Positions 33,501 to 36,500 of a stretch of 64,000 bases of DNA are shown here, in pieces. The translations under genes were made by a program, and so were the position numbers. The notes below the pieces were generated by a model. It searched no databases, was not told where the DNA came from, and was given only the letters and a program-made list of their open reading frames with translations. Position 1 is the stretch's first letter, and every line of letters begins with the position of its first letter. The stretch covers positions 10,178,433 to 10,242,432 of the forward strand of contig NC_092023.1 of assembly GCF_042242105.1 (NCBI RefSeq), read 5' to 3'. The stretch is from Pempheris klunzingeri (lineage: Eukaryota > Chordata > Actinopteri > Acropomatiformes > Pempheridae).

Positions 33501-36500
33501 CACTCACACATCAACTATAGTTGAATTTGTGTTAAATTGATGTTAATGTTATTGTTTATTGTTACAGTTTATTTAAAGTACTGATTTGTTTTTTTCCTTC
33601 CCTCTGCAGACCTTTGTAAATGATGTCCGCATCCAGGAGCAGATGTACATCACTCTGAAGCTGGAGGACAAGCTGAGGTTTGGATATGATATCCTTTCAC
33701 TGACCTTTTAACCTCTTCAGCCCTCACACATCCACCAGTCGGTTCATCCTGCCAAAAACATGTTGGGCATATAAAGATAGTAGAGTTTACAGTTTACAGC
33801 TATGTGTTTAAAGTATATATGTGTATGCACGTGTATCATAATTACATATTACCCTGTATTTTGGCCAGTATTTCCTTAACTTGTTTGTCTCACATACCAA
33901 CCTGTTCACGGTGGTGAGAGGAGAGCTTACTGTGCCTGAGGAGGCTCTTAAGGTATGAACAAAATGCACAACCTGTGCCTTAAAACACACTGTCAAGTAT
34001 CAATGTGACACAGCTGTATTATACTACTCTATGTGTTTTTCATTTTTTAAATTTAGCATGAAAAGTTTACCAGTGGCCTCCAGCTGAGCAAGAAGCCATC
34101 CAACGGTGAAACCACTACCACCACAACCACAAGCAAGTCTCCCGCTAAGACCCCAACAAAGACACTTAAGTCCCCCAGTAGCGGTACCCCAAGGACAGGG
34201 GAGAGTAGAGCAACAGATGGGGGCACTTCCTCAAAAGAGCCAACAGCTAAACCTGTGGACACTCACAAACCAGAGGAGAGGATGGGAGGTGAGTGACAGT
34301 GTAAGGAATGTGAGGAAATAGTATGAGCCTTTTTTGGCATCTGTTATGCATTGTTAGAAGCTAATATTTAGGCAATTTGGTGTGTTGATTTGGTTCACTG
34401 TTTACAGTCTTTTCTTAAAATTTACATGTATTGACTGCTTTCAGTTTTACCGTAAAATGTTCAAACAATACATAAATTAAAATTGTCATACTGTCACTTA
34501 ATCCAAAAATAGGGTAATGGTGAAAAAAGAGAACAGAATAGGAGACCGTATTAAAGAATAATAACTCCATCTCCACTAACTTTTCATAATGGATTTATTC
34601 CTGTGTGGAAAAATATTTCAAACAATGTACTGAAATACTGCTGAAATAATAAATGCTGAAATGTTACAGTTTCAACGCCAAATCACAAAAGTTGGATGTA
34701 TTGAGATGTTTCATGCTCCATAATTGTGCAGCACACTATATGACAAGTTACACATATAGGTTTTTAAGCTGTGTGTAAGAATTTTGGGGTGGATCTCTTT
34801 GCAAAGAAATCACAAATTTCACCAGAATAGGGTGAAATTATGGTGGGATTTTATCTCAGTCCAGTAGGGGGTGGGCATGGCCACCAGGGAAACGGATTTA
34901 ACCACCACTCCAACATGCAGTCACTCTGTTTTAACATAAAGGCGGTTTAGGTCTTAGAGTGTCCTTAATAATTGTCATCATTGACCAGGCTGTGGTGCTA
35001 GCAGGGGTCCTCGTTAAGCTCCAGATATTGAAACAAGGTCACATGGGACTTGTGTTATTGCACAGATTAAGCAGTAACAGGGTCAGAGTGCCTACATAAT
35101 GCAAACCCATATGCCAGCACTACTTTTCTTAAAATGAACTAACATTCCCAGGCACGCGCATACATTTGCACATTCAGACCAAAAACAAGCAAACTTACAC
35201 TTATGGTGGTGCATGTCTCCCCATCTGCTGCTCTTGTTTTTAATGACAGCCTCTCTGTGGTTTTGTGGAAGTGATCCTGCAGTGTTACTACTGTAATACC
35301 AGGCCTCACCCTGATATTATACCTCAGAGCGAGCATACATTGAATAGCTTTTATATAGAAGGCCACTTACTGCATGCAATTTGGCGCAGAGTATCCGTAA
35401 TTATGTGGATATACTGTGATTAAACTTACATAGCTCAGGATAATGGGTACTTAAAGAAGGTAAAGGAAGAGGATAAAGCAGGGATAAGTTAACACAGGAT
35501 GAGGCCTCCTCTGGCACAGTGGTGTAAGCTGCAACATTGCTGGTTTAGATCTGGCTGGAGACCGTTGTCATTCCCCTCTCTTTCAACTATGTTTCCTGCC
35601 ACTTTTCTACTGTGCTGTCCAAAATAGAAATAGAAAGTTACTGCAGGATGCTCGCTCCCATACCAGCTTTCATTCTGACATGGCAAATGTAAAGTTCCTC
35701 TTTCATTAAAGTGAGCGTCCGTGTGAAAGAGAGAGCATGGTAAAGATTGTGCATGTCTGTGTCCATCCTGCTGGCTAAACTTTAGAAAATAGGTCAGTGG
35801 TGCAAGACCCAGGGGAATTAATGCACAAACACACACATACACAAAGAGCAGCTGGGTTCACTTGGTATCATCATGATACAGTTAGCAGTTTATGTCAATG
35901 AGTATGAGTATGTCAACTACATTATAAATATGGTAGACATGCCAGGCTGCAGTAAAAGCTACATGTAATGGTGCCCTCTCCGCAGGAGTTCTGTTAAAAT
36001 GTGTCTGCATCTGTGCGTCTGTCTCAGGGGATGTTACAGCGCTGCCTCGTGGGACCCCCCTGTACGGACAGCCATCTTGGTGGGGGGATGGGGATGCAGA
36101 TGATGAGAACTCCTTCAAACAGGAGACCAAGTCATCCAACAAAAAACATGATAGCTCCATTTCAGGTAGGAGATTTTTAACTGAAGTACCATCACACACA
36201 TCACCTCCTCTTCACTATAAGTAAAATGTGCAGGGCTGAAAATGGGCACAGTGCTTTAAATGTTTGAAGTAGACATGGAACATATGACAATATCATATTG
36301 CCAAAACAGAGGCAATGTGAGAGTGCTGTAAATGAAAGAAAGATGGTTGAATGTCTATATTTATCAGATTTGACCATATTTTTGAGTAGTTTTGCAAATT
36401 GCAGAATTTCTTTGCATTTGTATTATCAGCAAAAAGGGAAACATAAAACATGTTTTTACACAGTAGGTGAATATTACAACATGATATAAACAGTATGCTA

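Follow-up and report, generated by a model that had tools for sequence, protein, structure and literature searches.

A probable U12-type AT-AC intron in the FHA-coding region of cep170 in Pempheris klunzingeri

The interval 33689-33893 (+) of the window, i.e., of the whole 64,000-nt stretch of Pempheris klunzingeri DNA that was analyzed, is almost certainly a U12-type AT-AC intron that separates coding exons 3 and 4 of cep170 within the FHA-coding region. It measures 205 nt, lies in phase 1 and, to judge from its letters, represents a well-formed minor-class intron of an ordinary and well-known kind. The identity of the gene, the exon join and the U12-type AT-AC class were all supported by sequence evidence: an exact U12-type 5' splice-site motif and an exact branch-site motif together mark the one join with canonical termini that restores the protein.

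Gene identity and exon map

Five cep170 exons were recovered in order on the plus strand by tblastn, using the FHA domain of human CEP170 as the query. Coding exon 1 (27591-27695) extended from the ATG to LMLQ, with GTGAGA as donor, and matched at 89.7% over 39 aa in an alignment that runs a few residues past the exon end. Coding exon 2 (31605-31694; SRSVDK...SLNG) was preceded by AG and followed by GTGAGT. A GAT codon is split between coding exon 3 (33610-33688; 92.6% over 27 aa), which carries its G, and coding exon 4 (33894-33952; 84.2% over 19 aa), which opens with its AT and continues to ALK and the donor GTATGA; the intron between them was therefore assigned to phase 1. For coding exon 5 (34057-34288), the 3' end was placed by eye at GTGAGT. 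The three neighboring introns (27696-31604, 31695-33609 and 33953-34056) were all GT-AG and phase 0; introns were delineated up to exon 5.

The spliced peptide, used as a 59-residue query, aligned without gaps to the human CEP170 FHA domain (PDB 4jon_A) over 59 of 59 residues (E = 4.3e-28). A Pfam search of the spliced protein returned FHA (E = 4.7e-16) and, more weakly, the FHA-related Yop-YscD_cpl model (E = 1.4e-9). Downstream of the FHA exons, three open frames of the plus strand matched CEP170_C, the CEP170 C-terminus family (PF15308), at 49334-50518 (model positions 15-403, E = 2.2e-102), 52439-52606 (positions 485-540, E = 3e-28) and 53086-53295 (positions 539-600, E = 2.7e-13). Both hallmarks of CEP170, the N-terminal FHA domain and the CEP170_C region, were thus present. 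Two further downstream open frames (39768-40184 and 53890-54324) gave no Pfam match. The gene is probably cep170 and not cep170b, to judge from its closeness to human CEP170.

Several other features of the window were recorded. A plus-strand stretch at 61390-61440 aligned weakly in tblastn, at chance level (E = 0.28, 52.9% over 17 residues), with the first part of the CEP170 FHA domain. An AT-rich stretch with CGATTAATCAATTAGTCGACGGCC at 33318-33410, in cep170 intron 2, may be a dispersed fish-genome repeat. Two long open frames outside cep170 had no Pfam match, one of 679 aa at 387-2426 (+), which may resemble an ARID5-type protein in its C-terminal region, and one of 241 aa, rich in proline, at 7425-8150 (-). 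No Rfam match was found in the window at the gathering threshold.

The exon join and the U12 signals

The enumeration of candidate joins let the upstream exon end at 33625-33799 and the downstream exon begin at 33700-33934, and required the removal of at least 39 bases. Stop-free joins numbered 3164, of which four gave the best peptide. These four are equivalent under shifting, since ATA opens the intron as well as exon 4, and their intron ends read AT-AC, TA-CA, AT-AT and TC-TA; only in the AT-AC member were the terminal dinucleotides accepted ones, and only there did ATATCCTT stand at +1. GT-AG and GC-AG borders were rejected: the AT-AC join scored 203, whereas the top score was 122 among the 4 open GT-AG joins and 111 among the 9 open GC-AG joins.

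The first-pass annotation of this DNA had proposed the same interval with the same letters, and both were correct: the U12-type 5' splice site ATATCCTT occupies 33689-33696 as an exact match, the branch site TTCCTTAAC lies at 33872-33880, and the last base is the C at 33893, which closes a 3' splice site CAC (33891-33893) within an intron terminus of CTCAC. Its statement that removal of the interval restores FGYDTNLFTV was borne out, since joining 33688 to 33894 yields the peptide as in human CEP170 (4jon_A), and so was its view that GT-AG choices fail, as no GT-AG or GC-AG join among those enumerated gave the best peptide. It had further stated that reading on meets a stop within eight codons. 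By conceptual translation the retained intron reads ILSLTF and then a stop, which is the eighth codon when the split GAT is counted as the first. The placement of the branch motif 14 bases before the 3' end stood in part: it holds for the distance from the second A of the motif (33879) to the last intron base, and not for the motif end, which is 13 bases before.

The consensus of U12-type 5' splice sites is (A/G)TATCCTT, and that of the branch site, which lies close to the 3' end, is TTCCTTAA(C/T). The 5' splice site was scored against this consensus over positions +2 to +8 and the branch site over 9 positions. The interval 33689-33893 matched at 7/7 and 9/9 positions, respectively. The three neighboring introns, in the order given above, matched at 1/7, 1/7 and 3/7 positions of the 5' splice site and at 6/9, 7/9 and 6/9 of the branch site.

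Some details of the intron agree less closely with published descriptions. The first and second A of the branch site (33878 and 33879) lie 15 and 14 nt from the last intron base, and the 14-nt distance is slightly above the optimum of 11-13 nt between U12 branch site and 3' splice site given in PMC3584512. The same source describes U12 introns as lacking any distinct polypyrimidine tract. Pyrimidines made up 80% of the 20 bases that precede the final CAC, within the range of the three neighboring introns (70, 90 and 75%), so that this feature cannot tell the two classes apart here. At position -1 there is a G, and the -1 biases of U12 introns are reported (PMC7367187) for the GT-AG subtype and as absent from AT-AC introns.

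Neither motif was unusual by its frequency in the window. RTATCCTT was observed 5 times vs. 4.21 expected, and is not unusual alone; with one mismatch allowed, 16 copies of the branch-site motif were observed vs. 18.76 expected. The strict U12 grammar, which demands both motifs, occurred once in the window, both strands counted, at 33689-33893. However, of 400 simulated windows, 16 also contained a strict-grammar match, and 4 did so with an interval shorter than 400 nt; taken by itself, the grammar is thus no proof of an intron. It is the position of the motifs at the join dictated by the protein that argues for one, since the chance of finding both there was about 1.6e-8 under a first-order model that allowed for the four shifts and ten branch-site placements.

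The other exact copies of RTATCCTT (2680, 8332 and 27051 on the plus strand, 20148 on the minus strand) fell at none of the exon ends delineated (cep170 exons 1-5). Across the cep170 span (27591-54400), 21 sites matched the 5' motif exactly or with one mismatch; 33689 was the only exact match among them, and a second minor intron elsewhere in the span may lie among the 20 one-mismatch sites. A grammar match with one branch-site mismatch at 27051-29911 (+) was taken as chance; it spans coding exon 1. On the minus strand, two overlapping grammar matches with one branch-site mismatch ran from 20155 down to 19126 and 19119. The branch site at 33872-33880 was the sole exact copy of TTCCTTAAC in the window, and TTCCTTAAT at 40202 likewise fits the branch consensus.

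Alternative readings and predicted consequences

A U2-type intron, removed by the major spliceosome and carrying AT-AC or other non-canonical ends by coincidence, was considered highly improbable. Introns of this kind are known, the sodium channel genes providing an example (PMC2831892), and the pyrimidine-rich region ahead of the 3' end would suit one. However, the U2-type AT-AC introns of the sodium channel genes carry G at +5 according to that source, whereas base +5 of the cep170 intron is C, and a U2-type reading would have to treat as accidental a perfect U12 5' splice site and a perfect branch site, with the joint chance stated above. An equally slight probability was given to a GT-AG intron with other borders, in which the AT-AC bases are unused. 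Four such joins were open, and the best of them, 33677 to 33919 (removing 33678-33918), stays in frame at the cost of 12 FHA residues. It loses residues that align with human CEP170, however, and leaves the U12 signals without explanation; its donor, GTTTGG, is weak. This join could at most serve as a cryptic fallback if minor splicing were to fail.

With the U12-type AT-AC reading retained, its role may still be asked about. That the intron is a regulated switch, in which retention or exon skipping tunes the amount of CEP170, and not a plain constitutive intron, was judged quite unlikely. The early stop on retention would fit such a switch, as would the exon lengths: skipping exon 3 or exon 4 singly breaks the frame, and skipping both (79 + 59 = 138 bases) keeps it with the loss of 46 FHA-region codons. 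Yet many introns would behave alike if retained, and the sequence gives no pointer to regulation; a switch would moreover be compatible with the plain U12-type explanation and additional to it.

Because the U12 signals are perfect and no good U2 alternative was found, the view of the first-pass annotation that the gene depends on minor splicing is a fair one, and cep170 probably needs the minor splicing machinery, with its U11, U12, U4atac and U6atac components. A failure of minor splicing would then be expected to retain the intron, to bring in the early stop and to leave little full-length CEP170. Inhibition of the minor spliceosome is reported (PMC8034651) to raise the skipping of exons that flank minor introns, and both retention and joint exon skipping are therefore worth seeking. 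A more far-reaching proposal, also unlikely, is that CEP170 production has its rate-limiting or regulated step at the U12 intron. A fall in minor splicing would then deplete the mRNA through retention, or would cause joint skipping of exons 3 and 4, the in-frame product of which would have a broken FHA domain, and would in this way contribute to the defects of cilium and brain in minor-spliceosome disease. The cep170 case leaves knowledge of minor introns unchanged; it adds a centrosome gene to those that merit examination under failing minor splicing, and sequence defines a simple readout for it (retention of the 205-nt intron, which would bring an early stop, or joint loss of exons 3 and 4).

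Ancestry and comparison with known minor introns

The rarity claimed by the first-pass annotation agreed with published figures. U12 introns, which it had put well under one percent, make up <0.5% of introns (PMC2831892), and AT-AC introns, which it had called a minority of these, account for 22% of them in zebrafish, 12% in Takifugu and 26% in human (PMC7367187, Table 2). In human the class comprises some 700 genes or 850 introns, according to published abstracts, so that one more member is unsurprising in itself. Of 180 intron clusters, 156 were of U12 type in all eight vertebrates compared; the others showed losses (eight), conversions (five) or were ambiguous (eleven), with no gain (PMC2831892). 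As vertebrate U12 introns are described in the same paper as very stable, an ancestral intron is likeliest; by this analogy, the cep170 intron is probably ancestral to vertebrates and present in other vertebrate CEP170 genes too.

It is quite likely that the CEP170 intron is already contained in U12 intron catalogues. Among the main texts searched, none was found that names CEP170 (or KIAA0470) as a minor-intron gene; intron lists sit in supplementary tables, outside such a search. No paper was found there that mentions U12-type introns together with forkhead-associated domains, and in the portions of the minor intron and minor spliceosome literature covered, CEP170 appeared in a reference title only, the co-mentions with U12 that were looked into being incidental. 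Pattern scans of virus and prokaryote contigs (15 and 53 matching stretches, respectively) contained no relative, as expected there.

Minor introns are documented in centrosome and cilium genes such as IFT88, IFT74, IFT80, CEP41 and TCTN1 in PMC13216214, the main text of which mentions CEP170 0 times; cep170 is likewise centrosomal. Compared with the U12-type AT-AC introns of U12DB and IAOD, the cep170 intron is alike in ATATCCTT, in TTCCTTAAC and in its AT-AC ends, as well as in having its branch site near the 3' end and flanking introns of the major type. No substantive difference from these introns was found, the distance from branch site to intron end lying at or above the upper edge of the optimum.
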